Origin: Ceraceosorus guamensis
Taxonomy: Eukaryota > Basidiomycota > Exobasidiomycetes > Ceraceosorales > Ceraceosoraceae
Direction of reading: 5' to 3'
NCBI RefSeq assembly: GCF_003144195.1
Contig: NW_020290138.1
Span: 1-30,812, forward strand
DNA: 30,812 nucleotides
Shown here: piece after piece, positions 418 through 27,781 of the stretch
Layout of the letters: the number at the start of each line of letters is the position of its first letter
Position numbering within the stretch: position 1 is the first letter of the stretch
The notes under the pieces: generated by a model
Told to the model about the DNA's origin: nothing
Seen by the model: only the letters and a program-made list of their open reading frames with translations
Database searches by the model: none
Position numbers and translations under genes: made by a program

Positions 418-452
<35 letters not shown>

Positions 453-475: not shown

Positions 476-3400
476 TCAGCGAATCCATTCGGAGCGTCTA
501 GCGCCCTGCGCTCGAGCAAGTTGCATGAGCTCGGCATCTCTGTGAACAGGCGCAATGCCATTTTGAGCTGGGAAGCTTAGCGGCAGCGGAATCGAGGTAG
601 TGCGCAAACGCACCTTGAATTATCGTCGAGGACGCGATGAGAATCTCCTCCGATCGCCTCTCCGCATTCAGGACATGTCGCAACCTCCATTGCTTGCCCG
701 CACTGATAGGATACAAGATTAGACAGGGGCCAGTCATTTGCACAATTCGATGATGAGCGAGCGAGCGAATTGCTTGCGGATGAGCTACTCACATCTCCAA
801 TCGTGAAAGAGTGCCCATTCGGACAGCGATAAAAGTGTCCGTCATCGGCGTACTCCAGTGCTTTGATGATCATCGCCTTTTCTGAGAGCGTGACTGGCCT
901 GTAGCGCACGACTCCCTTCTCAAGCTCGACCAGCCACTCCGAGACGCTGAGGTGCATTGCTTGGAGCTCGCGAGACAAGATTTCGCCTTCTTCGCAGAGT
1001 GCCGGACTCGTCGTGGCCGCAAAAACCTCCCATGCGGCTTCTGCGCGCTCTCGGGCAGCGAGGAGCTTCTTGCGCGCTCTTTCGAGGCTTTCCTCCGAAT
1101 TTGACTTGATCTTGGGAGCTGGTCCCTTTGTCGAATCACCTGCTCTGAAGCTGCTTGACATCGTCTTGTCCAGCTCGATCAAGAAGCGAGTATGCTCAAA
1201 ATCGATGCGATAGAGCAGCAACTCGGCTCGCATTTCCAATCGTCCCGATTTGGCTCCGCGCGCTTTGCGTATGACCTTTTCGGCATCACACCCCGAGCTC
1301 TCGAGCATGAAGTGGACCTGTTGATGAAATCGCAAGGTAATATCAGCGACTGCGTGCTTGATGAGGTGAGCCTGAAAGGTTCAAAGGAGACATACCTGAA
1401 ACTTCCACAGACGAGCTTCGCCAAAACGCTCCTTGTCAAGCATTTGCTGCAACGCGGTGGCGATGCGTAGCATGGCCACACGCGCATGCAACATCATGAG
1501 CATGGCCTCAATTTGGATTCGTGTGTCGGCCTGAGATCGAGGCATGGCTACGCATCGATGAGATTCCGCCAAAGCCTTTGCATCCGAGTTCGGATCGTCG
1601 TCGGAATATTTGGGACGCGCTTCCTGGTATGCCTTGCTCAAGGCTGCTTCGAATGCCTTTGATTGAAGACAAAAGATTTTAAAGGTCAGCGCACTGGTTC
1701 GTTGAATCTCATAGCCGGAACGCCTCTGCCGGACTCACGGTGACCAGTTGCGCTACACAACCAATGATTCATTACATAAGCAGGAGCTCGAAGTGGTGTC
1801 CTTGAGCCACGCGACTCACTTTTGCTTTCGCTGAGCTGCCGAGCCTTCTCGTAGAGGTGGCGCAGCTCGGTTGTAGCTCGCATCCACGGATAGTGGATAT
1901 CGTAAGGCAGCTTGAAGGCCTTCGAATTTGTAAGATTGTGCGCAGTCATCAAGAGCGCTTCCGATTCCTGCTTAAGGCGATCGCGACAAATGGAGCGCAA
2001 CGCGCGGGTTGTTGGCTGATCGATTTTGGGCGCCTTCACCCGCGGATCCCGAAGTTCGGACAAGAGAGAGGTGATCTTGTGGGCAACGTCGATAGAAGTC
2101 CAAAGCCTCTGGAGCTTCTCAAGCTCCTCACCGAGACGAGCAAGCGCTCGCCTCTCGTGCTTGTCCAGGCGTGAACGCGCGAGCGGTCGACCATACCTGG
2201 GTGACAGAATCTGTGCTCGACAGGTTGGGCATGTGGGACCGTTGCTGAAAGCGGAAGGCGGTTGACGTAAACCGTCCCATTGCCCATTTGTCGGATTCTG
2301 CGTGAAGTAAAGAAGCATCTCGCAGTGCCCATCGAGGGTCTCCACTGTGAAAGTATGGCCACAAGTGCTGAAAAGGTGGCCATGAGCTCAGTAAATTGCT
2401 CAGATGTCAGAGGATTATGTGCCGCCCGGACTGCACTCACAGAGTAATGATACGCTCGGACAAATCACTGACAGTGTGATTGAGATCCAAAAGCGCCCTC
2501 ATACCGAGCAGATCCACAATTTGGTGTTTTTGGGAGTCCGATGAGCACGTTGGACAGAGCTGCTGAGCACAAGGTTCTCCGCAGACTGCGTTGCGAGCGG
2601 AGGTCAGCACTGCGGTACGCACATCAGCCGGTCGAATACATACCGGATGGACAAGAATGGCCACAGGCCAACAACTCGTCACAAGCTTCGTCACATGGCA
2701 ATCGTCCACACGGCTGTCCGGGACGAGGACACGTCAGTGCTCGATGGATCCTGACTAGTCCACTAAGCCAGACTCACCGTGCCGCATGGCTCTGGACAAG
2801 CGCCCTGATGCTTGCAACTCCAGGCGCAAGGTTCCAAGCAGATGACGCACGGATCCGAGCACAGCGAATCGCAACGGCGATGTTCGCACGTCTGCGTGTC
2901 GCATCTCTCTTGACAAGGTCCACAACCTTTTTGTGTGTGGCTCGTGTTGCACTTTGCCCCGCACTTGTGTCGGCAGCTCTTGCGCTCTTTGCCGCATCGG
3001 TGTTCTGAGTGTGCCAGACGAGGCACGAGGTCAGGTGTCGTGCAATCGGACGTCTCGCTTGCGTCCTCCGTGCCTTGCTCGCTGTGGTCGTCGCGCTGCG
3101 TGGTGGGCGTAGAGAGTTGCTGGCAATCATGGCAGTCCGCCTCACAAGGACGGCCGCAACATATCAGAGTGATGCCGCAAGCGACAGTGCACTTCACTGC
3201 GGAGGCATCGACATGGCACGGAAGACGAGTCTGATGCTCGCAGTGAGTCATTTGCTTCTCTACCATGACGTGGCAGGTGTAAGTGCCGGACATCGCAGCA
3301 TGACACGGCACGCGCTTGGCCTCGTGACCGCACGGCAAGGAGAGCGCGGCAATTTCGAAATCGCATTTTCTGATCGGCCAAAGCATAGCTCATCAGCAGC

Positions 3401-6400
3401 GGTGGGATCTCGCTGTCATCTTCACTCACCCGCAGTCTTGCCAGCATGCTTTGGAGCAGGGATGCTCACAGCCGGGCTGCAGCCTTCGGCAATCCGAAAG
3501 ACAACGAACTTCGAAGTCCTGTCGTCAAGAAAGGGAAAGTCGTGTTCATTTAGGCCCCATTGTCTGCTGGCTCGAAGTCTAGCAGAAGAGATTGGAACTC
3601 ACTTCGTGGCTTCGCGGGTGGCACTGTGAAGAATAGTGACAGGTCAGAAATGGCACTCAAATAGACCGGATCCAAGCCGGCAGCCGGGAACGAACCTTCA
3701 GAGGGCACACATGACCGCATTGAAGTTCCTTGCCACATGGTCTAGCGCAGCCTCCGTCGGGCGCCCAGTGGGCTATCTGCTCTGGGTCAGCTGCTAAGTA
3801 GTCTTCATCCGGATGCGAGACACACCGAAGCTGTTTGATTTGGAATGGCGTTAGTATGGCAACGAAGTCGAAAAGCGCTGTGTGGAACTCACCGGTAGGC
3901 CGGTGAGGATGCTGCCAGTGTTCTCGAATTTCTGGACGACTGTAGCCCAGAATTGGCTCTGCACTGCCATTTGCGTTGCGTTACCCATCACAATCATTGC
4001 ATCACGCGCCCGCGAGAGAGCGACGTTAGCGCGATTGGTAGACTGGAGTCACAGAATAGGTAGAACAGTCATTGTAAATGTCGTAAATGGACAATTTTGT
4101 CTCTTCGAGTGACGTAGTCCTGACCGAGCTCACTTTGACAAAACCCGCGCTTCTAGACGAAAGCGCTGCTTCAAAACTGCTAAGGTCGCCTTCGTTACGG
4201 ACCAATGAGATGATCACAATTTTGGCTTCCTCGCCTGGATGAATACGTTGCGTGCTTTCAGCAGAGCTCTTGACCGGCGGTGTGTCTTAAAGTAAATCAA
4301 TCCACTTACCTTGAAACCGATCGACCGTACCGATGCGGACTGCCGTGCCAAGGGACATGTTCTTGACTTTCATCTCGTCATGCTGTAGGGTAGCACTGTC
4401 GGGTACAGCAGCAGCGGCGTGGAGTGCTGCTTCGTCTCGCTCGTCAACTCTGACAGAGATGTGTTCAGACGCGAGTCTTTCTCGCATGCGAACCAGCTGA
4501 CCGAGGTAGGTTACCAGAATGCATATGTCCCCCGGCTTTGTGTACCCTTGGTTCAGCAAATGCCGGACAGTAGCGGCGGCCATCTCCACCTGAGTCAAAG
4601 TTGGTCTTTGAGTTAGCGTGAAATCCGTGAAGGCATACGAGGGTTACGAGCTCACTTCATAGGCGTTTGACTTGCTGGTCGAGTGTTGCATCGTTTCTTC
4701 TCGGTGGGTGTGATGCTGAGGTGAAAGAACACTATAGTGTGAGCTCATGGCGGTCCGATGCGAGAAGTCTGCGTTTGCATCTCCACGCACGATCCACATC
4801 ACATTCTTGCCGAGCCCCTTGACATCAGGTCTGTCGAGCGTGGTGTCATGATCCTCCAAGTTCTCGTACAAGCCTCGGACGAGCTCAGAGATCTCCGGAC
4901 GCATGCGACGCTGCACTTCCAGCCGTCTCATGGGAATTCGACACTCTGAGGCTAGCCGCTCCATTAGAGACAAGTCGAGGCGATAGGCTTGTCCGCCTCG
5001 CGCGTTCTCGACAGACAAGCCGAAATTGTTGACGTGAGGACGGAGCTGCATTGGATCGCCGATGAGCACGAGCTGCTCCATAGATCGAGTCAGGCAAGCG
5101 AGCACATGAGCCTCGAGCACCTCGCCCGCTTCTTCGACAACCAGCACCCGAGGCTTGATGCGCTGGACATGAGAAGGAACAGGAGTTGCGCATAAGATTT
5201 ACCGTGACTCCTCGTTTCCTGAAGGCACCGTGCTCACCTCTAGAAGGCCACAGAGCTGTGCAGCGCCGGTCGTTGTGCATCCGATCACTTTGGCCTCTCG
5301 AGCAACTTGAAGGCGAGTCTGACAAAGTTGTCATAAACACTCAGCATCAGCGCAGGGCAACGAGCGCGACGCGAGCTGTGCTTACTTGATCTCTCAGCTC
5401 ATTTATAGCTGCTTTGGCGGCTGTGAGCTGTTGTGCTGCGCGATCCATCTCGGGAATCGCGATTCTCATTAAATCGCCCTGCCAATGCTCTAGTAGCCTC
5501 TGTCGCTCGCCCTGACTGAATGTCCACAGTTCGGTGTCCGCGAGAAGCTCTTCCAAAGGACGCACCAGCGTGCTGGCTTGTGAAGCGCTGGAAGACGTGG
5601 AGGAACTGTCTGTGACGTCTGCATCCAGTGTCGGCATCACCGCGCGCTTGTCAGGCTCGGCGGACTCGTCGCTGTTCCAAAACCAGCCTACGTCCGAGCC
5701 GTCATCGCCGTCGTCACTGCCATTAGCCGCCTCGGAGTCGTCACTATCATACTTTGATTGTAACGCGCTCCACATGTTCGTCGCTGGCTTGTCGTTATCG
5801 TGGCCTCGCTGTAGAGGGACAGTCGAGGAGCTGAGAGCGCCAGCGTCGCTCGGAACACGTGTCGCTTGATCCGAACGTTCAAGATCTTGCAGCGAGGCCC
5901 AGTATGATAAAAGCGTCTCATCATACGAAGGCTTGTCGGCCCGCGACCAGGTCCGGTATTCCTCCCACAACTGAGCAATGTGGTCGGGTGGCTGTTGGAT
6001 CGCGTGGAGTTGACGAGGGTAGTTGTCTTCAAGCAGCTCCTGGAGCAACTTGTAGTTCCAACTGACAAAACGAGGACGTGTTTGCGAAGGCGCGGGACAA
6101 GCGCTTCAATCGCGGCGACTTACTGAGTACGGCTTGCAACTTTCGCTGCATCCAGCATTGACTGCTCCGTTTCCTTTATGTTCTTGAAGGCCCTAGCGTA
6201 CTCCCCACTCCGGGCCCTGGGTACGGCCTCGCAAAGCGTGTCCAAGTTAAATTGGCTGATTGTGTCGTGCTGTGATCGTGAACCAAGTCTTACAAGACTG
6301 CTGATGCCGTGGCCATGCAAGTCATTTAGGAATCGGTCCAGAGCATGATTGGTCACGCAAACCACCAAAATTGGCGAAATGCCGGAGTCTAGAAGCGTCG

Positions 6401-9400
6401 ACAAGAGATGGACCCCTGTGTAGCTCTTTCCGGTGCCTAGAGACGGTTCAACGGGCACGCACGAGGTTGAACGTGAACTCCTGAAGCTTCGAACGGAGCT
6501 GAACAGCTGCCGACTCACCCGGCGGGCCTTGTATGAGAGACACTTGAGTGTCCAATGTCGATAGCAGGGCCGTCATCTGCGAAGCATCCAGCACGCCATC
6601 AGCCAATGGAGCTTGCTGACGGATGTTGCCTGGCTCCACGTGAAGATTAGGGGCATCCTGGGTCCCATCACTCGAGCCGTCCGTACTCGAATCCGTTTCT
6701 TCCGTCGTTTCGCTAGGCGCCTCGTCCAAATTCTCAGCAATGGCGGCGAGCAGCTTTAGGAAAGCCTGGTCTCGGGGCGGAGGTTTCTTCAAAAGCCCCG
6801 TGAGGTCAAACTTGAAGCCTGGGATGCGAGAGTAATTGGGTGGCTCCATTTCCACGTCTCGCAGTGAGCCAGCGGCTCGCGACGTGATGACTTCGCTGAA
6901 AGGGATGTCGCGTGCCTGATCAGCCAGTCTCTGCAGCGAGCGCAAGAAAGGTTCAACGGTGTTGAACAGAACTCCGGACACCTCCGCAAGGAGGCTGATG
7001 CCACGCAAATCTTCTCCGTGTCCAGCAGCGACCTTGAGCATTGCGTTGTCGAAGAAGTGCACGTCTATAGTCAGCGATCCATCTGCGCCGACGAAGCGAT
7101 TGCACTGATTTCCCAGGTGAGAGACTACTGTGCCCAATTGCACCGTCATCTCAGCTTCTGAGTCGGCCAAGGCGACGTATGCCACCAATGCACCGAAGGT
7201 CAGCGCTGAGGAGAAGCGAACAAGTCATCAGCACGATTGCAAATCGAATGGCGCGCAACAATTTCTCATGCACTGACCGTGCCTAGTGATGGACTGCCAA
7301 TATGCAACACTATCTTTACGATGCGCGTTTCTGATGTCGAGAGAGGCCGGTGCTGGCAGGACTATACCAACGGCCGGCCCCTGCTGCAAATGATGTGAGC
7401 AAGACGTGCGGCGCACACAACAGACGGATCCCAAAACTGACCTTTGCAGAGATGGAAATGTCGGAGAAAAATCACCTCGCCATCGCCATACAGACGCAGC
7501 GTCGCGCCGTCTTCAGGTCCACGGTACACACCACCGTGTGCTGCAAGAAGTCGCGAACACTCATTGTGCTCAGCGTTGCCTAGCAAAGTCTGCCTGAGGT
7601 CTTTGATGAGAATGGGCAATGTCTCTAGTAGGGGTCCCAAGAACTCATGTCGAAGAAGTCGGAATTGAGTGTCGATGCTGCCAGAGGGATCTAATAGCTG
7701 TCAGCGTAGCGTGGACGATAGGTAAGCTGCACGCATCGACTTACACTCGAGCCATGGAATTTTCCGGCAGATGGTGTGGCGCGCCAGCTACTGTCGAAGG
7801 CAGGAAGGGGGGAACATCACACTTGAGTTCTTGTGCCGTGGGCCCAATCTTGATGCGGGTGATATCCGCGTGATCGTTATCGTGGCGGGGACCCGCCTTG
7901 CGGAGCTCGCCCGGACCGGTGTTCTCCCAAGCGGCATGCAGCCAAGCCAACTGGCCTGTACTGATCGAAGGTACGTCGGTGACAAATTGGGGTCGCTGAG
8001 CATTTGCTGAAGGCTCTGGCACAACAGGTGTGAGCCGGGCCTGCAGACGCAAAAGTACGTCTTCTGCTTGCTTGACGCAGTATTGTTGTTCTTTGGTTGA
8101 GAGTGAAGAGAACAAATCTTCATCGAAGCCGCCTGTTTGCAGAATGTTGAGCCACTCCTTCAGCCACTTCAACAGAAAGGCGCAGAAGTTCCAAAGCACT
8201 TTGCGATGCAAGTCGGCTGCTTCGCTGAATATCTTCGTGTACCTGTGGGCGCATTGGATGCTCAACGAGCGACTTCAAGAGCGCTCGTTAAAAGCCTGAG
8301 CGTGCTGGACTCACTCTTCTAGCAGGATGCACGTCGGCCAAACAACTTGGAAGTGTGTGATCAAGTTGAAATTCCTCGGGTTACCGGGCGCCTTGAGCTG
8401 GCGTGCCTTCAATAGAGTTGACAAGTGGCACTGGATAGACTCCAGCATTGGGGCGAGGGAGAGCTCGACGATCCCCAGCAAGTGCGATCTGTTGACCGAA
8501 GTAGAGTCCAGGACTTGTTCGCTGCTTAAAAACTGTGATGGATTGATATAGCAAGGAATCAAGTCAAGCGCCAATCCATGCGCGAAACTCTAGCTCACTC
8601 ACCAACAGTACTGGCACCATGATCTGCTGAAAAGACATTTTGGGCGACGCAAAGGATGTGGTGGTGGACTCGTGGTCCGCGATCAAAATCTTGCGGAGCG
8701 TAGATGCGCGAGAGCGGTTACGATCTGCCATGCGTCCGACCAATTCTGCTCGCGCAGAGTGGTCGGACTGGTGGGAAAGCCAAGCCTCACGGGAGAGTCA
8801 GCGAGGTATCCTTCGAACGGGTCGCTACCCTAGGCGAGGTACTACACACCCATGCGTTCATGGATACCAGCATGGAGCCCAGAACTTTGGCCTGATCGGG
8901 GTGATCGAAGTCGAAGGCCGGACGCAAAAAGGTGTTCAGCCGACGATGCACGTCTTCGGGGCTGATACCGCTGCGTGGAAACAAGACGTTGCTTCGTCTC
9001 GTGTGTAGCGTCTGCATTAGAACGCGTTGAAGTCGCGGCGGCTCAAAGCTGATCGGTTCGTTTCCCTCTGCGACCGCCTTCGTGCCCAGCATGGACACGG
9101 CGGTTGAGGGGCCCGGCGGAACGTTAGGGCGCCAGAAAAGAAGTGCGTCTGTTTTGTCCGAGCGAGCTGGCTCGTCAGAGGGTGCCTGCGCGTGGAAAAA
9201 ATAGCATCGGTCACCATAGGGGCAGCCTGATGGTGACGAGTAGAGTCTGCAAGCGCGGGGAGTAAAACTCCATTTCGAGGAATGCGGAACAGCCTCAGCT
9301 TTCTTGTTAGCGAGGACACAGCGTGATCGCTCACTCACTTTTGCGACATTGACTCGTCAGAGGGTGCCTGTGCGTGCGAAAAATGGCATTGGTTACCATA

Positions 9401-9531
9401 TGGGCAACCTGAAGGTGTCGAGTAGAGTCTGCAAGCGCGGAGACTAGGATCCCATTTTGAGGAGTGCGGAAGAGCCTCAGCTTCCTGAACCGTCAAGACA
9501 CAGCATGATTGCTCACTCACCGTTGCGACAT
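476..9531 (-). CDS. ZNFX1: NFX1-type zinc-finger RNA helicase (ZNFX1/Hrr1 family)
   Basis: SF1 helicase of the ZNFX1 family; relatives act in small-RNA silencing (S. pombe Hrr1, C. elegans ZNFX-1) and dsRNA sensing (human ZNFX1). Exons, 5' to 3': 9531-9521, 9428-9339, 9246-8850, 8767-8603, 8532-8315, 8242-7747, 7697-~7442, ~7383-7278, 7205-6519, 6436-6124, 6061-5386, 5318-5238, 5162-4656, 4589-4310, 4234-4134, 4042-3893, 3830-3696, 3623-3603, 3518-3430, 3369-2778, 2713-2644, 2585-2441, 2367-1820, 1752-1739, 1656-1396, 1317-793, 702-614, 539-476. All joins keep frame except the one near 7442/7383, which I could not resolve. Order in about 2,360 aa: CCCH fingers (1-60); conserved N-terminal region (VELSLAP, DTQFRLLRHEFLGPL); Walker A GPPGTGKS (~808); TNHALDRFL; IGCTTTGAA (~1150); Walker B VVEEAG; IGDPMQL; VDRFQGEEA; NRANVALSRAR (~1465); NF-X1 Cys/His array (~1515-1860); CGHTFTVETLDG with CPTCR..RYGR; RZ finger (~2300-2335). 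Human ZNFX1 is about 1,900 aa; the excess is mostly acidic Ser-rich insertions. The start codon is the least certain point. Confidence 0.92.
614..860 (-). other. RZ-type zinc finger at the C-terminus of the helicase
   Basis: The spliced product reads FYRCPNGHSFTIGD, then an intron (792-703), then CGQAMEVATCPECGEAIGG and DSH. This is the RZ finger shared by ZNFX1 and RNF213. All expected ligands are present: Cys of CPNGH, its His, Cys of CGQ, and the CPEC pair. In RNF213 this finger is needed for E3 ubiquitin-ligase activity, and the His and the Cys seven residues later that matter there are both kept here. The intron falls exactly between that Asp and Cys. Catalytic activity of this protein is inference only. 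Confidence 0.85.
2441..3830 (-). other. NF-X1-type cysteine-rich zinc-finger array
   Basis: Six exons (3830-3696, 3623-3603, 3518-3430, 3369-2778, 2713-2644, 2585-2441) carry repeated CGH and CxxxC patterns, such as CGKELQCGHVC, LSLPCGH, CGAKCNTSHTQKGCGPC and LLACGHSC. This is the NF-X1 array that follows the helicase core in ZNFX1-type proteins. One exon is only 21 bp (CHPRSHE, 3623-3603) and supplies a Cys-His pair, so skipping it would break a finger without shifting the frame. Confidence 0.88.
4134..6530 (-). other. SF1 RNA helicase core
   Basis: Motifs run in order on the minus strand: motif I IQGPPG ending at 6519, with TGKS resuming at 6436; Ia TNHALDRFL (about 6350); IGCTTTGAA (about 5280, in the 81-bp exon 5318-5238); II VVEEAGEVLEAH (about 5130); III IGDPMQL (about 5060); V VDRFQG-EEAKIVIISLVR across the intron 4309-4235; VI NRANVALSRAR in 4042-3893. 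Walker B is EE in place of DE, as in human ZNFX1. An acidic, Ser-rich insertion of about 100 residues sits in exon 6061-5386. Nothing needed for catalysis appears to be missing. Confidence 0.9.
9172..9531. repeat. Tandem duplication of an exon-intron unit encoding a CCCH finger
   Basis: Two direct copies of about 179 bp (about 9172-9350 and 9352-9531) are roughly 80% identical by eye. Each contains, on the minus strand, ATGTCGCAA followed by a GTGAGTGAGC donor, an intron-like stretch, and a finger-coding segment (LYSTPSGCPYGNQCHFSH in the upstream copy, LYSSPSGCPYGDRCYFFH in the downstream copy). Both end in HAQAPSDE. Finger spacing is C-x8-C-x5-C-x3-H if the first Cys is retained. The downstream copy needs splicing because AAGTGA follows its MSQ in frame. 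Joining donor 9338 to acceptor 9247 keeps the frame. Confidence 0.88.
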
Positions 9532-9937: not shown

Positions 9938-11061
9938 AGGCCTGATCCATTCATTCGACAGCTTGCAGCAGATGGCGATCCGCGTCGTATCACGCGTGGC
10001 GACATGTAGACCGATGGACTTGAGACACTGTGTCTCTCCTGAGTCTGATGCGGCAATATGAATATTTTCTGACACGATCAGACACACGTTCGCCCTTCTC
10101 GTCTCGACTCGACGGCCAAGCGGCACTTCATCTTGAAGTTGACGTTCAAGCAGGTGTGAAATCGACCCGGCCCACAAGCCTTGGCGAACCCAAATTCTCA
10201 AGCTCCAATTCGAATTCGGCCCAGACAGCGAAGTATGGCGCGCAGCAGGACATCAATCAGATCCTGATTGGCTCGGCATTCACGAGTGTGGATGCGCAGA
10301 CAGCACTCTTCTTTGGGGAGCAGCGGCAGCGGGCAAGGACGAGTCAGTAGACAGATGCCTCCGCAGTAGAGACATAGATGACTCACTTGACACCCATGCA
10401 ACGTTGTTGATTCTGTCAGTCTGTTGGTGATCTACATCACCGTTTCCTCGTCTCAGCTACAGACGTGGCCATCTGTAGCAGCCGTGAAATTGAACCCATT
10501 GCCCTCACTCATTATCGAGCTGCGCTCGGCCAAGTGAGACTCTAGGCGCTTCTCTCATCGTGGCAGCATCTTGTCGCCCATGATGCAAAGGGACTTGAAG
10601 TCGAGACGACGAGGTCAACGAGCGTAAAGTTGCATTCACGAAGCCGGGTTCACGCGCTCAGAGCAAGCAGGCCCATGCGGCGCTTGTCTTGCTACCAATC
10701 GTCTGCCAGAACGACCCATCCGCCCTTCGATCTCTTTTCAAGCTCGCGTTTGCCTTTGCCTCTGCTGTTCCTTTTTCCTTTTGGATTTAGATTGCCGAGA
10801 TCTGCCCAGATGGGTGCTCTATACGCGTAGATGGTCATCTGTCTTGGATCCAAATTTCCTAATATCTGTTCCTGATTGGCGCCCAGACCCGTGCTCCATC
10901 GCCCAGTAGCATGATGTCTGCACTCTCGTGCTTCACGGGCACGCTAATAGACTTGCGAAGGACCCCTGCAAGCACCTCGTGACTGATTCTCGATCGATTG
11001 ATATTCACGATTGGTGGGTGCTCTTGAGTGCGTGCGTGCTTGCTTGCTCGCTGCGGGCTCC

Positions 11062-11092
11062 TGCTGGTCGAGAAAGACATTATCGACCAGCA
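11062..11092. other. Perfect 10-bp inverted repeat (hairpin)
   Basis: TGCTGGTCGA (11062-11071) and TCGACCAGCA (11083-11092) are exact reverse complements around an 11-nt spacer. There is no T-run right after it on the plus strand. It lies in gene-free DNA, so it could be a dyad binding site or a structured RNA element. Confidence 0.7.
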
Positions 11093-11273
11093 TGATGTGC
11101 CCACGCCTTCCGCACTGGTTGTTTTCTTTTTTTTTGCCTTCGGAGGCGAGGTGGGCAGCGTGTATGAGCCATCACATGGATATATGCCTCTTTTGAGCTC
11201 TGCTCAGCAGGCAGCAACGTCCGCACGTCCATCTCCTGTGAATACCGTACACGGCTTCATGCTGCAGTCACGA

Positions 11274-11283
11274 GTCACGTGAG
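11274..11283. promoter_or_regulatory. CACGTG (E-box/Cbf1-like) site
   Basis: GTCACGTGAG contains the palindrome TCACGTGA and fits the RTCACRTG consensus of fungal bHLH regulators of the Cbf1 type. It is intergenic but far from both flanking starts, so function is uncertain. Confidence 0.35.
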
Positions 11284-11870
11284 TATATACGTACGCGCTA
11301 GCTGCTGCATGATCAACGCGGCCCCTCGTTTCAGCGCGGCAATTTGTTGCAGCAGGCTTGCCCGCTGCATGCGAACCCGAGACATCAGCGGCTGCTCATT
11401 CCAGCATGTGTCAGTGTACCGATGACTGCCTGCCGTCGGCTGGCTGTCACGGAAGAGCGTCAAGGGTGTTCCCGGTTCCGAACGCTAGCTCGCTGACAGC
11501 GATTTAGAAGGGCATGATTGAACTCAACAAAGGCTGATGAGTCGGCCTGATGCAGCAGATTGAGAGCCGTCTCCCACAGTCGCATCAGTGAGTGTGGAGT
11601 CGAAGCATAGTCAGTCTTGAGTCAGGTGACGCCGCGGCGATTTGAGGGGTCCGCGCGTGTGTGAGTTTATTAATTGTTGATGATAGTGATTGCAGCGTAA
11701 CAGTAGAGTAGTAACGCGCGGTGGGGCCCTACCCTAATCGTTAGCGCGCCAAATGAGACGCTAAATTCAGCAACAAATTGCCTCTACATTCACGCGATTT
11801 CACGATTATTGGGGGTTTGCGTGCCCCCTTTTGCGCTAGCTTTCGCTCGATTCCGCTTTTCCTTCTCGTC

Positions 11871-11905
11871 GCGCCGCGCCGTGCCGTGCCGTGCCGTGCC
11901 GTGCC
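11871..11905. repeat. (GCGCC)2(GTGCC)5 microsatellite
   Basis: Seven consecutive 5-bp units, two GCGCC followed by five GTGCC, in gene-free DNA. Confidence 0.9.
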
Positions 11906-12115
11906 TCACCCGACGTGCACGCACGCATGCATGCGTAGCTTCGAGATCAGTCGGCAGCAGCAGCTAGAGAAAGGCCATTCAAGATTTACGATTTCTTGAT
12001 TTGAGATTCATGTGCCATGCAGTCAAGAGTGGTGAGTCTGCTTGGCTAGCTTTCGTGCTGCACACACGCTAGTTGGAGCCGCGACCGTGGCTGGCTTAGA
12101 TCAACGCCGCTGACC

Positions 12116-12138
12116 CCTCTCCTCTCCTCTCCTCTCTC
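12116..12138. repeat. CTCTC-rich pyrimidine microsatellite
   Basis: About four consecutive CTCTC-type units form a pure pyrimidine tract in gene-free DNA. Confidence 0.75.
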
Positions 12139-12717
12139 ACACTTTCCGCGCTTGATGAAGGCTCTGCAGATGCCGACTTATGATTCAAGTTGATTGCTGC
12201 TGTCTGCGCGCATTGCTCCATCTGCATGCCATGGGGGCTCATTCATGCACGGCTCTCCCCAGCTCGAGGGCACACCCATTCGCTCGAATCACAAAATCAA
12301 CAATTTGAATTGAATGGTTCAGGAGCACATCTATACCGATACTTCATCGATCGTAATTCTTGATTGGCTTCAGTCGATGATTGTGTATAGTGGTAGACTG
12401 CCTGTCTGCGCCGGTGCGGTCAGCAGCACACTTGCCGCTGGTGCGCAACATCTATGATTGTAGACTCTTTTAACTTGCGAGTTGCCGGGGCCGCCTAACG
12501 AATGGACTCGCTCATCATGCACTCCTCCAGCAAGTCTCCAGCAAGCGTTTGGACACGAGCACCTGATCTCCGTATTTGCAGGCGCAGGCGCGAGCGGAAA
12601 CGCGGCGTATGACGACATTTTGAGGGGGCCTGTGCTCGAGCGAGCAGAGTCACAATCACAACAATCTGCGATTCGTCAGTCGCAAGTCAGGAGTCAGGCG
12701 CACAAGGGATAGGAAAA

Positions 12718-12739
12718 GGGGGGGCTGGGGGGGGGGGGG
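12718..12739. repeat. Poly(G) tract G7-CT-G13
   Basis: A G-homopolymer pair, a likely site of polymerase slippage and sequencing length error. It sits at the GC-rich edge of the AT-rich motif zone. Confidence 0.85.
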
Positions 12740-13329
12740 ACGAAATGAGCCATGCAACCACGAAATCGCGATTCAAGATTTTTGATACAGATTCTCAATC
12801 TTGAATTCGATAAGTCAAAAACAAATGAAAACAAAAGAGGCGCAAGTCAACACTTCAATGAGACAATTTTGAATCTGAATCTGAAAAAGACGCTTTGACT
12901 AGATCAAATCAAGAATATGGATGACGTGCTATGCCGAGACAAAAGAACGCGCGAGCTCGACGAACAAGTCTTGAGTAGGTACATGGGGTCGAGTCAAAAA
13001 AGATCTCGCATCAGCTATACAATAGTCTAGTAAATGATATTCTTGATTTATACTTATAGCTATAGCTATCAGTGTATGTATTTAGGAGACGAACAAGAGG
13101 GGCGCTAGCGCGGTCTCGGTGCATCCAAGACGCGTGGCATGGGCCTCTCTCTCGCTGCTTCATTTCAAGTCTTGGCAAGAGCGGGTCTGAATCAAGAGTT
13201 TGAATCCAACGGTCTCTTGAATCAAAATTTTGATTTTGATATATTTATGTATAGAAGACGGACTTTGAGGGCAGCCACTCGTGACTACTGACTACGCTTG
13301 CACTCACGTCACGACTCACTTACAAAAGA

Positions 13330-13343
13330 CTCGATCGATCGAG
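13330..13343. other. 14-bp palindrome CTCGATCGATCGAG
   Basis: A perfect palindrome in gene-free DNA about 1.2 kb upstream of the RA-PH start. It could be a dimer-binding site; no known consensus is claimed. Confidence 0.5.
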
Positions 13344-13845
13344 ACTCGCGACCCTCTTTCTTCTCCGCTGACTGACTGCACGCTGCTGATGATGGCTTGC
13401 AAGCTCCCCTTCAATTGACGGCTATAGCTGCAGCTAGACTATCTCGCATGCATCAGCTGAAACGAAATTCACATTGTGCTTGTTTGGATGCTGCCCGCTT
13501 ATTGTGATTGTTTTCTCAGTCGAGTGATTCATTCCCTCGGCGCGAGTCGTTCGCGTTGCCCATGCAGATGCAGCATCATATATATGCTGCACTCTTTTGA
13601 CTGACGGACTGCTCTCGTGACAGCGTCTTGACGGTGATGTACAGTATGTGTATGGCGTGTGTGTGGTCCATTTTAAACTCGTGACCGCATGACATGCAGC
13701 GCGTATGCATGCGCGCATGAGGACATCAGCAGCAGATGAGGTGTCGCGTACGTAGACCGCGCTCTCTGCAGCATGCGTGCAGTCAGTCACAGAGTCGCAC
13801 GCAATAAGATACGCAGACGCGGCAGACGCGACTGCTGCTGCATGC

Positions 13846-13878: not shown

Positions 13879-14530
13879 CGCCGCTATACCATAGCCGCGT
13901 TCGTGACCGACCCTTTTTTTGGCGCGCTATGCATGCTGGACACTTGCATGGACTCAAAAGACTCACGACTCATCACGCCGGTGACCTCTACTGTACCGTA
14001 GCTGCACTCGTGACTTCCAACACGGCGAAGTCTGCAGCAGCAGCAAGCTACACCTTCCTCATTGCTCACTCTTTGACTGGTGCACGCTCATCCCGCCCAC
14101 CACTCAGATTCTCGCCACACCATCATCACCATCATCCGAAAGGCTGCATATGCGCCCGGTGTCGTCTGTTCCTTCCCCTTTTTGCAGGTCGAGCTCGCAT
14201 GGCAAATCCTCCGAAACACTCCGGTCATCTGAACGCGACTCATTGACTCCGACGATTCCGAATCCATCACGAGAACCGAATCCCAGCCGTCGTGCTTCCA
14301 TCGTCACTGACAGCAAGGCTCACTCGCATCATCCAACATTCTCCGTATCATGGCCGTCCATGCCTCATAGATCGACGACATTATTCAATCGAACGTTACA
14401 AGTTCGAGGCACCCTGCACCTCTCACTCGCACAATCCACACAAGCCAAAGGGCAGGCTTCTTGGCACTGAGCTCTCGCGTCGGTCCTCAGATGTATGCGG
14501 GCGCAACGAGCAGTGCGGGTCTGATCAGAA

Positions 14531-17500
14531 ATGTCGGCGACAGCGCCTCTGTCGCCTCAGCACTCGCCTCACAGTCCTATGCTTAGCCTCTCGCCGCTCG
14601 GCGTGCATGCTAAATTGCCAACACCTCCTCACGCTACCCAAGCCCTCGAGGTCTTGTCATCCTCATTCAACTTTCCCGAGCCGCCCAGTCGATTATTCAG
14701 AGATGGGTTCGGCTCCGCTCGCTCTTCGCCCAGGACCAGTCGGGCGGGTAGTCCGCCGCCGCCGACGATGCGGAAGAAGAGGAGTCCGAGGAACAGCGCG
14801 AAGCGCTTGACGCAGGAGTCTGCAAAGGCTCGCCCCCCCATGCCTGATCTGCCCTCCCCTGCTCAAAACGACTTTCCAGCTTCGGCAATCTCGGCGCCCA
14901 CCTCACCTGCCAACTCATCAGCACACCCCTCTTCGCAGCCTCTTGGCGTGTCAGGCAACCGCCCTAGCCACAGCAGCGCGCCTCCAGAGCAGTCCAGGTC
15001 AGCGCCAACCACGCAGCATCCACACGCGCACATACAGGCAGCCAATTCTTCCGATGTTTCCTCTGCGAGGCTTGAGCATGCGCTTGGGAATGCGGAATAC
15101 GCGAGCGACGCAGGAGTCGTCGCGCAAGAAGCAGGAGGGCTGGGATTGCACATGGCAGAGGCGGTGGAGGCCGACGAAGGAGATGTGGAGCAACGTCTCT
15201 CCTTCCTGAGTGGAAGTGGCCAGAGGCAATCTGCCGTACCAGCTTCGCAGCGAGTGTCGAGCGGTTCAAGCATTTATTCGGATCAGCAAGAGTACCTGGC
15301 TCAAGAGGGGGATGAGACCGGCGATGGTAGCGCTGGCGGGCTCAGTCTGTCGAGTGACAGCGACTCGTACATGCCCGTGACGCCAGCTACGCCGGGTCAT
15401 TCATTCAGCTCTTCCTTCTCGACCTCGTCCACTTGGCGACCGCGCGAGCTCACCCTGGCACGCGCGGATGCGCAAAGTGAACGAGAGCGCTCTTTGGCCG
15501 GTCTTGCTCTTAACCCGCGCTCCGCCTCGCCGATGATGTCCCCCTGGTCCTCTTCATCCACAATTGGTGTTCCGCGCGATAGACTTTCACCAGCGCCAGG
15601 AGCATCTTCACCATCTCATCTGCGAGGCGTAGCCGGCAGTTCTTCTGCAAACACGAGCCTCAGCAGCGGTGGTGGCCACAATAGCGGTGCTGCAGGCACT
15701 CGAGGCCTCATGCTCGCTTCAGCAGCGGCTCCTCCAAACTCCGCGCGGAATTTCCCACCTCTAGCCCTGGCACTTCCTACTTCGACAGGTGCTACTGCCA
15801 CCGACGCTGCTCCGCCGCGATCTTCGCCGTTGGCACCCAGAAGCAGGTTTGTGAGCGCTCCTGGCGCAGCTCTGACCAGTCAGGCTCCGCTTCGAAGTCC
15901 ACTTCCTGTGCTCTCGCGCGGACCGGCATTTCCGCCTGCTCGAGATGCGACTCTGGAAAGCATGGCTGCTGAGCGCGTGCCCAACGAGGATCTGGGAGCA
16001 CTACAGGCCATGCTACCCCATCGACGGCTTCTGAGCGGGTCGAGCGCAAGGCTATTGAGCCCTGCGCTACACAGCGCGAGTGCGCAAGGCGTCATCAGTC
16101 CCATAGCTTCCAAGCCTAGCTGGGAGAAACCTTTTGGAGAAGCACGCAGCGCCAGCAGCGACTCGCAGTATGGGAACGAAGCGCGGCCAATGGATCCGGA
16201 GGCGTTTGTCGCTGCTATGCAGGCGGCCTCGGCCGCCGAAGTGGCGGCAGCTTTGGAAGCGAGGAAGCAGCTGCGAAGTACCGCGTCGGCGAGCCAGCTT
16301 GCAGAAGAGGTCAAATCGGCCCCTTCTGCGCGTCCGCAAATGCCAACGAGATCCCGATCGCAGTCCTTTTTGCGCTCCTCATCGATGACGCGTCGGAGAG
16401 CACCACCGCCTCCCCCACTGTTGCTCGCCACTGCCCCTTCGAATCCTGACATGGCCGGAGCAATCAGCAAGGACACGTCTGCGCCGACGACGAAAGATTC
16501 GACGCTCGACGCCGCCTCGAGCAGCGTGGTGCCTGACGACACTCTCGAAGCGGCGCAGGAAAGTCCAGAATTCGTCACTGCGCCTGGCATCTCCTCGTCC
16601 CCCAGCTTCGAGATGATTACCCATAGCGCAGGGGATCAGGATCAGGGCCAGAGTCGGAATCTTCTGGCACCCCTCAGCTTGCCCCTCGCTGGAAGCGCTT
16701 CTCCCATGAGCGCCGCATTCCACACCCCGCTTGCCAGCCCAGCCAATATGCCCTCGCCAGAATCCGAGTCTCGATCGCTGGATGATTCCTTGATGATGGC
16801 TGTCGTGGAGGCTCAGATCGACACTGCCATTGTGGACCCTCTTGCGGAAGCTGGGGACGATATCGCCATGCCCCAGACCTCGAGAGTGGAGGAGGAGCAC
16901 ATCACTGCGGATGCCCCGGACGAAGCCCTAGAGGTTTTGGTGGATTCGCCATTGCAGACACCCTCAAACGAGCTGACTGCTGATCCGAGAGCAGAGTCGC
17001 GCGAGAGTGCAAGGGCTTTGGGAGCTAGCAGCAGTCTGAGCGTGCGGCCTGGATCGTTGGAACAACCCAACACGGCTTACTTTGACTTTGATAGCGACAG
17101 CAGCGACGCGCCTGAAGGTATACGCGAGCCGATGATCTTCAGAAAGATGAAGACCAGGAGCACGGTCCAGGAGAGCGAGCCGGAGCCGGAGCCTGAGCGG
17201 GAGCAGATGCAGCGTTTGTCGGTGGCAGATGTCAGGTCGAGCTTGACCTCTGGGTCGGAAGCAGCGGACGCTGCGGAGAGCGCGTTGGGAGGGAGAGCGT
17301 TTAGCGAGGCGGAGGCTGCGTCTGCTCGTGAATCAACGGCGGGTCTGAGTCTGAGCGCAAAATCAGATGAAGCAGGTGAGTGTTCTGGTCTCATAATCTT
17401 GCCGATGGCCGCGACAAAGCGCTGATCGAGAGCGTCTTGGCACGCAGCTGGTGCAGCGCCGTTCGAATTTGACGATGCCGATGCAGAATCGGGAGATCAC

Positions 17501-20500
17501 GAGAGTGTAGCCGTTATGCGCCGGTCCTCGTCTTGGGGTAATTTGGAGCCTTTTGAGGAGCGCAGAGTCTCGTCGCCCAACAGTTCGGTGCAGGGACGAA
17601 CGTCGATACCGCCAACGATCAGCTTCAGGACTTCCATCTTCAAGCATCTCGACCCCAAAGGCGCTTCTGGACCGAAAGGGGCACCGGAGGCTCGGGCGGA
17701 TATTTCTCCGTTTGACACTGACGGCGGCGATGAAGATCCGCTGGTGAAGGCATCTTCAAGACCAAGTGCGGCCGTCACGACGGAAGATGTGCTTGCTGAT
17801 ATGCTGTCAAGAAATCAAGAAGTTCGCATCTCTCACCGAGTCGAACCTTCGAAGCTTGCCAGATCGTCTTCGCAGGTCGCGCCCGCAGGACCACCGCCGT
17901 CCGAACCTTTGCCCGCGCCACCACCCGGAAGTTCATTGCGTCGCTCGAGCCGATCGGTCGGCAGAATGTCGCGCGCGGAGCGAACTAGTCTTGCCGCCAC
18001 TTCGCAGCCGCAAGCGGAACCGACCAAAATGCCCCAGACTGCTCCTTCGCGTCCGAAGCGGCCCAGCGGCGTCGAGCTTGAACAACTCGATCTGCAGCCG
18101 AGCCCCATGCCAAACTTGGTGCCCAGCACAGAGCCACTGCCACAGGGCAGGTGGAAAGCTGATGCGCACCTTCCTTTGGCCTCAGGGGCAAGTCCCGAGA
18201 GACCTGTTCATGGAGCTGAAGGTAGGAGTCAACCTCTCAGATCACGCTCTCGTCCCAACCTCACGGTGCGCACAAATTCGGAAGCTGTGGAACAGGCCGA
18301 AAACCTGCAGGCCCGCCCACGGCCACCTGTCCCTAGGTCAAAGGCGAGCCTCGTACCAGAGGTGCCTAGCTTTGGCTACATGGGCCCTTCGACGCCTCTC
18401 GACTCGGCGATGATGTCGCCGACGAGCGGAGCCGCCGGGCCATTCAGCGCCTTCTCGAGCAGCTCATTTTCTGATCGGTCCACCTTTGAGCCAACGTCTA
18501 GCCGATGGAGCTCCGGTTCAGATTCCGAAGCAGAAGCGAGCAAGCTGGCTGCGCGGAAAGCTGCGGCAAAGAGCAAGAAGGCTGCAAAGGGCCCGCAGCT
18601 CACGAGTCGGACGAGCAGCTCGAGCTTGGGCCAAGGATCAATGGGTCCCCCTCCTACGCCGGTCAAAAAGTCTAGCTTCTTCTCTGGACTTGGTCTGCGC
18701 AAAAAGAGCCTGACAAATGCTGCAGCTGGCGCTGCTGGTGTTTCGCCTGCCAGCTCCGTCGGTGCACCATCGCCGAGAGTCATGGATGCCGCAAGCGAGT
18801 TCCCTTTCCCTGCCAGCACTGGACCTTCGCCCTCGGTGGCGGCCTCTGCTGAAGGTGCACGCACGAGCACAAGCTTGCACTCCCGAAATCGTGGAGGTTC
18901 CACCTCGTCCAGAGCGTCCAACACGACTAGCATTGGTCAGTCCTTGACGAATCGTCCGTCGTTGGCCAGTTTGCGATCGATCACCAGCTACGATCCCAGT
19001 CGACGTCCTTCTGTCAGTGCCGAGTCCTTTGCCAGCCCAGCAATCAGTGGTCCGCCTTCTCCCGCCCTGGAAGGAATGCCGCGAGGCTTCGATTCTGTCC
19101 ATCGCCGTCCATCCAACACTGGACTCGGCATCGATATGAATGGCAGCTCATCGAATGGCCCTTCAGAGCCTTCTGTGCGCGCATCGCAAGGCCTCAGATC
19201 TGCCCGAGCTTCTTTGAACAGCTTGCGAGCATCCAGAGATCTGGCGGTCATCCGCGCTAGTGGCGAGAGCGACGAAGACCTCGCTGCTTCTGCCATGTCA
19301 CCCAAAAGTACACGTCGGAGGTCCCAAACCATCGCTGCAGGTGATGGTAGGATGTCCAATCGCGCTTCGAGACAGACGCCCTTGTCGAGCATCGAATCTC
19401 CGTCTAAAACCGCTGAAGGAGGCAACAGGGTCAGGGAAACTGATGCGGCGACGGACGATCTTGACGACACGCCCCGCGTAGCCTACGCTTCTCTGCCCGG
19501 CTCGCGCAGGGAAAGCGTCACCAGCCCCTCTGTTGCGCGCGCGAACGCCAAGCGTTACTTCGAGACGGATCACGAGGCTCTGGACGCCTTGGGCTCACGA
19601 TTGTATCAAGCGGGCGCAGGCGATGCAGAAAGTCAGACTGGGACTGCGCCCAACAGCCCAACGGTGCCGTCGCGCGTATCGTCCATTCGCCGACATGAAC
19701 GAAGCGGCAGCAAGGGCAGGCAGAGCCCTAGCCCTTCTCTATTGCGTCACTCCCCCAGCGGCTCTTTGTTGCGCCACTCTCCAAGTCCAAGCTTGACTCG
19801 CAGCATCAGCGCATCATTGCTGCGCGCCATGAGTCCCGAGGTCCAGCCGTCTCCGCCACCCCGAACCACTTCCAAGCCGAAGAGGTTGATCGAGAAGTAC
19901 AATGGCACCGCACTGCCTCATTATCCTTCGCTCACAGATTTAGGCCGAGCGTGGGTAGCGCAGCATCCAAATGAACCGTTGCAGGCGGCTAGTGGCCCGC
20001 GAATGATGGCACGGATATTGGATGGAGTTTCCAAGCGGCGCCAGCATGCTGGCTCGGGTAGCAAGACGCCATCGGACGCTAGCACCGATGACTATGGCTC
20101 AAGTGATGGCGGTGGTGCTGGAGATCACACGAATTCGATTCGCAGCAACGGCCACGGGTCTGCTCCTCAACGAGGAGGCGACCAGGCTGGAGGCGGTGGA
20201 GGAGACGATCCGGACGGTAGACGCAATCAGCAAAGTCGTGCGGATAGTCACGTTGACAATGCGAATGGCAGCGACGAGTCAGAGGATGAGAGCGATGACT
20301 ATGGCTCACAAAGCGATGAGGATCTAGCGCTTGGCGATGCTTTGGGAGCCGGTCACATTTTGGGGAGCAGCAGCCAGAGCGCTGGCTCGAGCCGCTCGGA
20401 ATCGTCGGATGACGTTCCGCTGGGAGACCGCGTGGGCAACGCTGCTGCACTTCAGAAGCGTCTTCAGGATCAAGAACGCAAAGCTCAGATTCAAGATGCT

Positions 20501-22955
20501 CGCAATGCTCTTGAACGAGGAGGTGTCAAGGCGACAAGCTCTGGAAAAGCTCGTCGTCCACGACGAGTCGCGCCAGTGCCAGAAAGAGCTCCTGATGCCG
20601 GACCGCTGAATGCGCTCGACTTGATCGGACGTCTACAGCGGGTGCAGATGCAGAGAGGCGGCGATCAAGCTACAGCAGCAAACGATCAGAATCTTGTAGC
20701 AAGCCAATCGATGCCTTCCAACGCTGCCCGAAGACCAGAAGCTCGCGAGGATCCGCACGGGCCTCAAGCACACCTCTTGGCACATCACGGTCTACCGGGA
20801 CCTTCTCAAGCGCAACGTCGACCCTCGCCTAGACAACAAACGATGCCTTTGCCAGCGGTCTCCGCCCCTCATTTGCGTGGAGGTGCGACTCGAAATGGCA
20901 GCAGCGAGTCAGCGGGTCGACCTGCTCAGGCACGTCCCTCTCTTGGGTCCAGCGAGTCTCAACTACGCGCGATGATGATGGCAACGTCTCACCCGGCGCA
21001 ATTCGATCCACAGCGGCGGCCCAGCCTGCATCCTTCTGATCAGCAGCAGCAGAGAGATTTCAGACCGCCCGTAGCGACGATGATGATGATGCCTTCTTCC
21101 GGCAGCTCTTCAGGGAACTCCAGTCCTCGCTTTCCACCGAACGACCATCAGCTGCAGCTATCCAGTAGGATGGCTGCTGTCATCGATCAAGGCCACAACT
21201 TTTCGGCCCCGTTGCCGCCATACGCTCGTCAGGGCACGTCACCGAGGCTCGGTGGATCTGCTCCTCTACGGCCCATGCACTCTGCTGGCGCGGCTGGCCA
21301 GCCTGAAGCCCGCGAAGATGCGGTTACACAAGCGAGAGCTCGCGCAAGGAGCGTGTCGAGAGCTAGGCCGCCGGCGACGGCCATAGACACTAGAGTTGCG
21401 CCTCCGATGCCAGTGCCGGCTCTGCTCGGCCGCGCTGTACCACCCCCCGCGCAAGAAGTCTCTCCACAGAAGCAAGCCATTCCGATTGGCGGCCCACTCA
21501 GCGCCTTGTCCCGCTCTTCCAACGAACCGCGCAGCTCGAGCGAGTCGCCTTCGACGGGGCTCGAGCGGGCGATCACTGCAGCTGTTCCCTCTACTGTCGC
21601 AACTGCGCACCTCGTGCAGCATCGCGTCTACATCAATACGCGCCAGCGCTTTGGGACTGCGCAGATCCTGCCCAACGCTCGCGCTCGAGATTTGATGTTG
21701 GACATTGTGGAGAAGGAGCATGTGCCGACAGAAGAGGCTGCCGGTGGCGGTGGCGGTTGGGTCATCTTTGACTGCTCGCCGACTCACAGTATTGGTGAGG
21801 TGCACAATGTCCTTTCACGCAAGCCTAAGCGAGATCTGATACCTCTGACCCTTTCGCGCGCCCTTTCAGAGAGACCTATGCGCGAATACGAATCGGTGGC
21901 TGAAGTCGTCGACTCGAGGCCTTCGCCAGACTGCTACTTTTTGTTGAAGCGCACAGAGCTAGCACCCTTTGCGAGCGTTCGTGCGGTGCCACCAAGCCTT
22001 CCCTTGTTGGCTGGCTACGTCTACGTCCAGGATCACAAGAAAAAGTGGACCAAGCGCTGGCTCGAGCTGCGCGAGCATTCGTTGTTCCATGCCAAGTCGG
22101 AAAAGGTGAGTCTTCTCGTTGATTGCGAGAGTGAGCGATTTGCTGACTTTCGCTTGCTTCTACACGCAGGGCAAGGACGAAGTGCTGATCTGCACGCTGA
22201 GCACGTTCGACGTCTATCTGGTCGACAGCGCCAAGTACAAGGCACCGAAAGCGCACACCTTTGCGGTCCGAAGCCAGAATCACATTTCGCAATTCGAAAA
22301 GCCAGAGCTGGACTATTGTCACTACTTTAGCCTTTCGGATCCACTGGCTCATCGGCATTGGTATCGAGCACTCTACACGAGCCGAAGCTATATGCTGAGG
22401 CAAGAGCGTCCGCAGCTCTTCTCGCCGCCGCCTCGGGCCGCGGCGCCATCTGCGCCTAGTCCAGCAACCAATACGACGAATGAGGGCCTGAAGGCAGCAT
22501 CAGCGGCGGCGGCGGCGGCGACTACTCTCGGAGTGTCGCGCAACACGAGCATCAATGATCGTTCAGCATCCTCGGCGCAACGAAGAATACCTGCACGAGG
22601 AGCAACGACGGATGACCGCAGCCCATCTCACCGTCCTGAAGGCAGCATCAGTGGTCAGAGCGCAGCGTCCGCCTCCGCATCCGTATCAGCCGCAGCCGCA
22701 GCCGCAGCTGCAGCAGCGCCAGCTCCGCTCATCGGACGTGATGCATTGAGCACCGGTCCTTTTGAAAAGGGAAGCTTGCTAGCTGCGGCGGCGCAGAACC
22801 AAGCGCAGAGCGAACAGATCGATCTGAGCCTGCACGAACGCACCCGGGCTAGACAGGTCGAAGCTGCACGAAAGGCGGAGCTGGCTGAAAGGACGCGAAG
22901 AGCTAGAGCTGCTGGTCAACCGCTGATTGGCGTGCCCACCTCTCGGGCGACGTAG
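14531..22955 (+). CDS. Giant Ser/Pro-rich protein with C-terminal RA and PH domains
   Basis: Three exons (14531-17375, 17448-22105, 22170-22955) with introns of 72 and 64 bp that keep frame give 2,762 residues. Residues 1 to about 2330 are low-complexity Ser/Pro/Ala/Arg with many SP sites, so probably a disordered, phosphorylated scaffold. It holds a short conserved-looking patch around 19885-19985 (KPKRLIEKYNG; aa ~1760-1790), a coiled-coil candidate (LQKRLQDQERKAQIQDARNA, aa ~1945) and four LLRHSPS-like repeats. A Ras-association-like domain starts at VYINTRQRFGTAQIL (aa ~2340). A PH domain follows (LAGYVYVQDHKKKWTKRWLEL to HWYRALYTS, aa ~2468-2577), ending in an Ala-rich tail. RA-PH tandems of the Grb7/MRL type bind Ras-like GTPases and phosphoinositides at membranes, so a role in polarity or Ras signalling is inferred. 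The start ATG has A at -3; an upstream exon (14150-14470, same frame) is possible. Confidence 0.86.
19730..19845 (+). repeat. Four imperfect LLRHSPS-type peptide repeats
   Basis: Within the disordered part of the RA-PH protein the frame reads LLRHSPSGS, LLRHSPSPS, LTRSISAS, LLRAMSPE. Each unit is 8-9 residues and has Leu-Leu/Thr-Arg followed by a Ser(-Pro) site. This suggests a repeated docking or phosphorylation motif. Confidence 0.75.
21610..22398 (+). other. RA-PH tandem
   Basis: The RA-like part runs from about 21620 to 21960 (HRVYINTRQRFGTAQIL, RARDLMLDIVEKEHV, then WVIFDCSPTHSIGEVHNVLS and YESVAEVV). The PH part runs from about 22005 to 22395 and is split by the 64-bp intron 22106-22169 after SLFHAKSEK. 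The KKKWTKRWLEL basic strand is typical of a PH beta1-beta2 phosphoinositide-binding region, and the Trp in HWYRALYTS fits the invariant Trp of the PH C-terminal helix. Confidence 0.8.
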
Positions 22956-27041: not shown

Positions 27042-27214
27042 GAGAGCAGTCAAGTCAACCAGCAACAACGTGAACGCTTCTTTCCTCCACCCAGCTGCTG
27101 CATGCTGCTTGCTGCACACTCACGACTCGCTCTTCGACTCACACTCGACTGTTGCAAGAACAGCGAACAGCGAACAGCCTGACCAATCCATCTGGCTTTG
27201 CATTCGAGATTGCC

Positions 27215-27403
27215 TCGCTCACGCTCACACTCACGCTCACGCTCACGCTCACGCCCACGCCCACGCCCACACCCACGCCCACGCCCACACTCACACTCAC
27301 ACTCACGCTCACGCCCACGCCCACGCTCACACTCACACTCACACTCACACTCACACTCACGCCCACGCCCACGCTCACACTCACACTCACGCCCACGCAC
27401 ACT
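27215..27403. repeat. Hexanucleotide minisatellite (CTCACG/CTCACA/CCCACG) before GPATCH1
   Basis: About 30 units of 6 bp, of the form C-(T/C)-C-A-C-(G/A), end 15 bp before the GPATCH1 ATG. Variants are arranged in blocks (CTCACG, then CCCACG, CTCACA, CCCACG, CTCACA and so on), so higher-order copying has occurred. The plus strand is strongly C-rich; the minus strand has repeated GTGGGC and GTGAGC. It contains no stop codon in any plus frame. Confidence 0.93.
27250..27290 (-). other. Predicted G-quadruplex tract on the template strand
   Basis: The CCCACG block reads on the minus strand as GGG runs separated by CGT or TGT. Six or so GGG runs with 3-nt loops satisfy the usual G3+N1-7 quadruplex rule. 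It lies about 130-170 bp upstream of the GPATCH1 start. Confidence 0.6.
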
Positions 27404-27418
27404 CCCCTCCTCAAAAGC

Positions 27419-27781
27419 ATGTCCTTCGTCCGACTAGGTACTCCCCTCTCCCTCAAGCCCTCTTCCTCATCATCCGGCACCGCCAGCAGCAGCAGCACAG
27501 CCTACAAACCAGCTTGGGAACAAGAAGTGCTGGATGAGCAAGGAAGACGTCGTTTCCACGGCGCTTTCACCGGTGGTTATTCGGCCGGATACTTTAATAC
27601 CGTGGGATCCAAAGAAGGATGGGTGCCCAGTTCCTTCATCTCCAGACGTCGCTCGCACAGACGGGATGATAATGATGCGGAGCATGATGATGATGATGAT
27701 GATGATGGAGCAGCAGCAGCAGCAGGATCAGCAGCAGCAGGATCAGATAAGAGGAGAAGGTTGAATGCGCAGAGTCGAGGT

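Follow-up and report, generated by a model that had tools for sequence, protein, structure and literature searches.

A 182-bp tandem duplication with a candidate second CCCH finger in the predicted 5' region of a ZNFX1-family helicase gene in Ceraceosorus guamensis

Helicases of the ZNFX1 family are tied to small-RNA amplification in other organisms. The described members, human ZNFX1, C. elegans ZNFX-1 and S. pombe Hrr1, share an SF1 helicase core, a Cys-rich region and a C-terminal RZ-type finger. Tandem fingers of the tristetraprolin type are defined by two CCCH fingers, an 18-residue linker and a YKTE-like lead, while tandem exon duplication is a known kind of event in eukaryotic genes. 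Here, we compare these systems with a locus of the basidiomycete Ceraceosorus guamensis. The window is the whole stretch of DNA that was analysed, i.e. positions 1 to 30,812 of contig NW_020290138.1 (30,812 nucleotides; GCF_003144195.1), and all coordinates refer to it. The features are as follows.

476 to 9531, minus strand: predicted ZNFX1-family helicase gene with 26 introns and 2,374 codons (hand-corrected model).
9350 to 9531, minus strand: copy A, the upstream unit, with an ATG at 9531-9529, an 11-nt first exon, a predicted intron and a finger exon.
9168 to 9349, minus strand: copy B, the downstream unit, identical to copy A at 149 of 182 positions, with an ATG at 9349-9347.
9444 to 9520, minus strand: predicted intron of copy A, GTGAGT...CTAG, 77 nt, phase 2.
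9268 to 9338, minus strand: predicted intron of copy B, GTGAGT...GGAG, 71 nt, phase 2.
9371 to 9436, minus strand: CCCH finger A, CRLYSTPSGCPYGNQCHFSH with flanks, above the Pfam zf-CCCH cut-off both in a short-peptide scan and across the genome.
9189 to 9254, minus strand: CCCH finger B, CRLYSSPSGCPYGDRCYFFH with flanks, its span derived from copy A by a 182-nt shift; below the Pfam cut-offs.

The gene looks like a ZNFX1-family helicase. In the modelled protein, one or more N-terminal CCCH fingers are followed by an SF1 helicase, a Cys-rich region and a C-terminal RZ-type finger, and the model has Pfam matches to AAA_11, AAA_12 and the RZ-type finger (PF20173, 77.0 bits, C-terminal). The closest of 24 solved relatives is human ZNFX1 (PDB 9q9z, E 6.3e-60), ahead of the UPF1-type helicases. 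Thus, the protein has the two hallmarks by which the family was recognised, an SF1 (UPF1-like) helicase closest to ZNFX1 and an RZ-type finger at the C-terminus, and its identification as a helicase in an earlier, first-pass annotation of this DNA is supported by the AAA_11, AAA_12 and RZ-type matches together with the best solved relative. The 23.8-Mb genome has two RZ-type matches, both of which lie inside this gene. Cys-rich repeats are visible by eye after the helicase; zf-NF-X1 was not recognised by Pfam in the full model, and no Pfam family reached E 1 with the 469-aa Cys-rich stretch. A difference from the members named above is the predicted presence of one or two N-terminal CCCH fingers before the helicase. 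Early gene models skipped or misplaced some exons, and the final model was corrected by hand. A run of 28 A (420-447, minus strand) is present just 3' of the helicase stop codon.

The tandem duplication at the predicted 5' end of this gene is confirmed. Copies A and B adjoin, and the base-by-base comparison that the first-pass annotation had proposed gives 149 matching positions out of 182 (82%) with zero gaps; the top ungapped 182-nt match in shuffled controls was 79 (200 letter shuffles, 1,801-nt region, offsets 182-599). The order is the same in both copies: ATGTCGCAA is followed by a GTGAGT donor with its short predicted intron, and then by a C-x8-C-x5-C-x3-H finger. That annotation had described this order (with the donor as GTGAG) in both copies, and it is indeed there, the intron being a prediction; it had also correctly reported a tandem duplication with about 80% identity, while its size of 179 bp and its start at 9172 are slightly short of the 182-bp unit and the span of 9168-9531. 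The similarity between the copies begins at the ATG, and by eye the sequences 5' of the two ATGs are unlike. Because no recognisable sequence 5' of the ATG was copied along with the unit, the old leader precedes copy A. An assembly artefact, in which two alleles or reads were joined in tandem, would be hard to reconcile with copies that are 18% divergent over 182 bp, have unlike flanks and meet at a junction compatible with the frame, and we regard it as extremely improbable. With an ungapped method, no other direct repeats of at least 60 nt were reported in the window except a simple-repeat tract. When the genome was searched with the two copies, no second place was found among the best candidates, which were the only ones scored. 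A scan for similar duplications found the A/B pair and one weak 70% pair in locus L006; it covered the window and 33 loci of 2.2-4.2 kb, among them the helicase locus and several that overlap, in total 140,721 bases with overlaps, and provides no genome-wide rate.

We moderately favor a model in which the first exon, the intron and the CCCH segment were copied as a 182-bp unit and both fingers are read into the helicase. In this model, the copied unit would begin at, or a few bases from, the start codon of the helicase gene, and removal of the phase-2 introns would preserve the frame from copy A. Translation would then proceed from the ATG of copy A through finger A, an internal Met (the former start) and finger B into an unchanged helicase, and the most likely effect of the finger pair would be additional RNA contacts ahead of the helicase. 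The duplication itself, a compatible frame, the codons for the ligands and the match to the family are observed, and the model adds to these a predicted splicing pattern, a predicted translation start and putative zinc and RNA binding.

The reading frame makes the introns indispensable: since 182 is not a multiple of three, the frame from copy A is kept only if the phase-2 introns are removed, and the unspliced frame from the ATG of copy A reaches a stop after MSQR. Both copies have, in addition to the acceptors listed above, an in-frame CAG that gives a 92-nt intron. In copy A, this intron ends at 9429 and the first Cys of finger A is lost; in copy B, the CAG lies 21 nt downstream, the intron ends at 9247 and the first Cys of finger B is lost. 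We compared nine splice combinations from the ATG of copy A. Six of them reach the helicase frame, all by removing both introns, either one by one or in a single span that skips finger A; in the other three, at least one intron is retained and the frame stops after 4, 39 and 4 residues. Two complete fingers result from the TAG of copy A combined with the GAG of copy B. One finger results from A-TAG with B-CAG, from A-CAG with B-GAG, or when finger A is skipped to B-GAG, and zero fingers result from CAG at both introns or from a skip to B-CAG. With both introns removed, the second ATG is internal and in frame, so the earlier statement that the duplicate ATG had become internal holds under the predicted splicing.

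The first zinc ligand of finger B is retained only via the GAG acceptor and would, therefore, be translated only if this weak site is used. Among the acceptors of the 24 other modelled introns (58-95 nt long), CAG occurs 23 times, TAG once and GAG never, a count biased by the rules of the intron model and by hand choices that favored CAG and TAG. Because GAG is absent from these 24 introns, the acceptor of copy B is suspect. This observation bears on an alternative that we consider possible but clearly less probable than the model with two fingers, namely that only finger A works and that copy B is a relic: splicing of its intron would mostly use the strong in-frame CAG, the first zinc ligand would be deleted and copy B would provide a linker only. 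The contrast between GAG and the acceptors of the other introns fits this alternative, as do the preserved frame and the 92-nt intron length, which is inside the modelled range, and the scores of finger B under the Pfam cut-offs. However, all four ligands and a C-R-L-Y lead persist in the DNA of copy B, and the same CAG in copy A would break finger A too; thus, a preference for CAG cannot be assumed for copy B alone. The first-pass annotation had called the locus a clear case of the gain of a second finger. This wording is too strong, because finger B needs a poor GAG acceptor that competes with the in-frame CAG removing the first cysteine, and a gain of a functional second finger by the helicase is, on these splice predictions, unproven.

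The two fingers also differ in how well they are recognised. Finger A scores 23.2 bits against zf-CCCH as a 38-aa peptide (cut-off 20.5) and 22.7 bits in the genome scan, and is a standard CCCH finger that probably binds RNA. The zf-CCCH score is no proof that the first Cys is used, because a version of finger A lacking it is still at 20.7 bits. Finger B keeps the C-x8-C-x5-C-x3-H spacing and scores 10.6 bits against zf-CCCH (cut-off 20.5) and 18.3 bits against zf-CCCH_4 (cut-off 24.6); the 20 candidates scored in the genome zf-CCCH scan do not include it. With the full-length protein as query, all CCCH families stayed below their cut-offs (zf-CCCH 16.0; zf-CCCH_4 22.6 of 24.6). The idea that finger B is broken by the Phe before its His was not upheld, as this position varies elsewhere: in 13 CCCH-like patterns, which are regex hits irrespective of coding status from seven of eight loci scanned in the same genome, the residue before His is L, K, P, G, R, S, T, W or A, and four solved tandem pairs have I at this position of the second finger.

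The start of the gene is likewise a prediction. In its first run, the unconstrained gene finder placed the start at 9092, downstream of both fingers (score 170.50), and the scores were 170.07 from the ATG of copy B and 169.93 from that of copy A; this gap of less than 1 unit is too small to decide. Two early runs took the CAG of copy A, which breaks finger A, and the TAG was taken only after a coding bonus had been added. Because the score differences are small and the gene finder is crude, the start and both acceptors are treated as predictions. The slight preference for 9092 agrees with the improbable alternative that translation of the helicase begins at copy B or, without any finger, at 9092, or that finger A is skipped, with copy A serving as leader. 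Consistent with this alternative, a start at the ATG of copy B, or splicing of 9520-9268 as one piece, would give an in-frame protein with one finger, and retention of the intron in copy A would leave a 4-codon frame only. By contrast, the better-scoring finger is in copy A, and copy A has the first ATG within 202 nt and an undoubled leader before it; the nearest ATG 5' of the ATG of copy A is 203 nt off and opens a 7-codon frame. Moreover, skipping finger A would require a 253-nt intron, compared with the 58-95 nt of the modelled introns.

Between the two copies, the finger exon differs at 12 of 94 sites (0.128) and the intron, with the limits of copy A, at 19 of 77 (0.247; Fisher p 0.049), and the Jukes-Cantor distances are 0.14 for the finger exon and 0.30 for the intron (0.27 with the intron limits of copy B). 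Thus, the finger exon has been conserved somewhat better than the intron, whereas the two had been described as comparable in similarity. Three methods give a dN of 0.11-0.12 versus a dS of 0.20-0.29. The differences in the finger exon are distributed over the three codon positions as 4, 3 and 5, a pattern that is not clearly coding-like. In a neutral simulation of a 93-nt finger segment at a distance of 0.24-0.30, 3.7-6.9% of the runs keep all ligands and acquire no stop; if only one copy drifts freely, 17-24% of the runs keep the ligands. Because few neutral runs retain both the ligands and an open frame, at least one finger has probably been kept by selection; the evidence that both have been kept is only suggestive.

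Divergence in the intron and at synonymous sites amounts to about 0.2-0.3 substitutions per site. At commonly quoted fungal neutral rates, such divergence would correspond to millions to tens of millions of years or more, and the earlier description of the event as recent is, therefore, not supported. The tandem may instead be old and common to relatives with no gain in the lineage of C. guamensis itself, a possibility that we find evenly balanced and that is compatible with our preferred model. The intron distance of 0.27-0.30 and the dS of 0.20-0.29 per site are large enough for sister species to share the tandem, but the copies still align gap-free over 182 bp.

As in usual tandem exon duplications, adjacent copies of an exon and an intron are found, and the frame is kept after the predicted splicing. 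However, in this case the unit starts at the start codon, holds a whole predicted intron and turns the old start into an internal Met. The resemblance to tristetraprolin-type tandem fingers is also partial. Residues 5-65 of the predicted two-finger product align with 9y10 (E 2.4e-10), 1m9o (E 3.5e-8) and 1rgo (E 5e-7), and in these structures, as in the helicase, both fingers are C-x8-C-x5-C-x3-H. An 18-residue linker is seen in 9y10 and 1m9o, while the linker in the helicase, given the GAG acceptor, has 17 residues, there is no YKTE-like lead before the second finger and the pair is attached to a helicase; thus, the pair falls outside the definition of the tristetraprolin type. Two of the five residues that differ between fingers A and B follow the first- versus second-finger pattern of four solved pairs: finger A has Q and S where the first fingers of the solved pairs have K/Q and A, and finger B has R and F where their second fingers have R and I. 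Scores for the whole fingers are mixed (+11, 0, -3 and +8). Based on these alignments, it is plausible that the pair represents doubled RNA contacts and not membership of the tristetraprolin family. We consider it doubtful that a tristetraprolin-like pair arose in a ZNFX1 helicase, that its copies then specialised and that acceptor choice switches the fingers on and off.

Use of both fingers would mean that a tandem RNA-binding module was gained by a ZNFX1-type helicase, and this through a unit that is workable only with its intron, because 182 bp alone would break the frame. If one finger is used, the locus would show a duplicated exon decaying through its splice acceptor. The second copy may be between use and decay.

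Searches of the genome found no second gene with an RZ-type finger to serve as outgroup, and the fingers could, therefore, not be polarised within the genome. Other helicase-like matches, with 31-41% identity, are present on contigs C4, C9, C53 and C67. Locus L016 (G000:C141:27288-27860) has a weak AAA_12 match (31.8 bits) with an internal stop and was unlisted in the search with the helicase protein of the window. The 178-aa N-terminus has no orthologue in the viral contigs searched. A 130-aa piece of the helicase matched no viral contigs and 10 loci in prokaryote genomes, none of which is titled as a fungus; these scans yielded no fungal orthologue that includes the 5' end. The best of these matches (41%; L034) is on CANHON010000426.1, a 4,122-bp contig filed under a Deltaproteobacteria MAG; as a guess, this contig could be eukaryotic contamination.

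The genome has one Argonaute-like place, consisting of two neighbouring matching pieces, and RdRP matches on two contigs. By analogy to other members of the family, the helicase might have a role in small-RNA silencing in this fungus; according to PMC9276528, Hrr1 is the S. pombe orthologue of ZNFX-1 and functions with an RdRP. Cryptococcus Znf3, considered as a relative, was rejected because its architecture differs; as described in PMC4778953, it has a coiled coil and a putative ribonuclease domain in addition to three zinc fingers. Among the literature matches listed, no title or beginning of an abstract describes a doubled CCCH finger in a fungal ZNFX1 helicase.

Elsewhere in the window, no stop-to-stop frame of at least 120 aa lies wholly inside 10253-13433, between the helicase start and the next frames, and this interval includes a 13-base G run at 12727-12739. 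On the plus strand, 14525-22955 has very long open frames of 966 and 1,634 aa, which are Ser/Pro/Ala-rich by eye and are possibly parts of one gene; three stretches of these frames had no Pfam match at E 0.001. Further downstream, DUF1604 and G-patch Pfam matches are found in the plus-strand frames 27074-28027 and 27903-28982, and a CAC-rich array of short repeats, with copies 12 or 18 nt apart, is present at 27189-27449 on the plus strand just before the apparent start of the DUF1604/G-patch gene.
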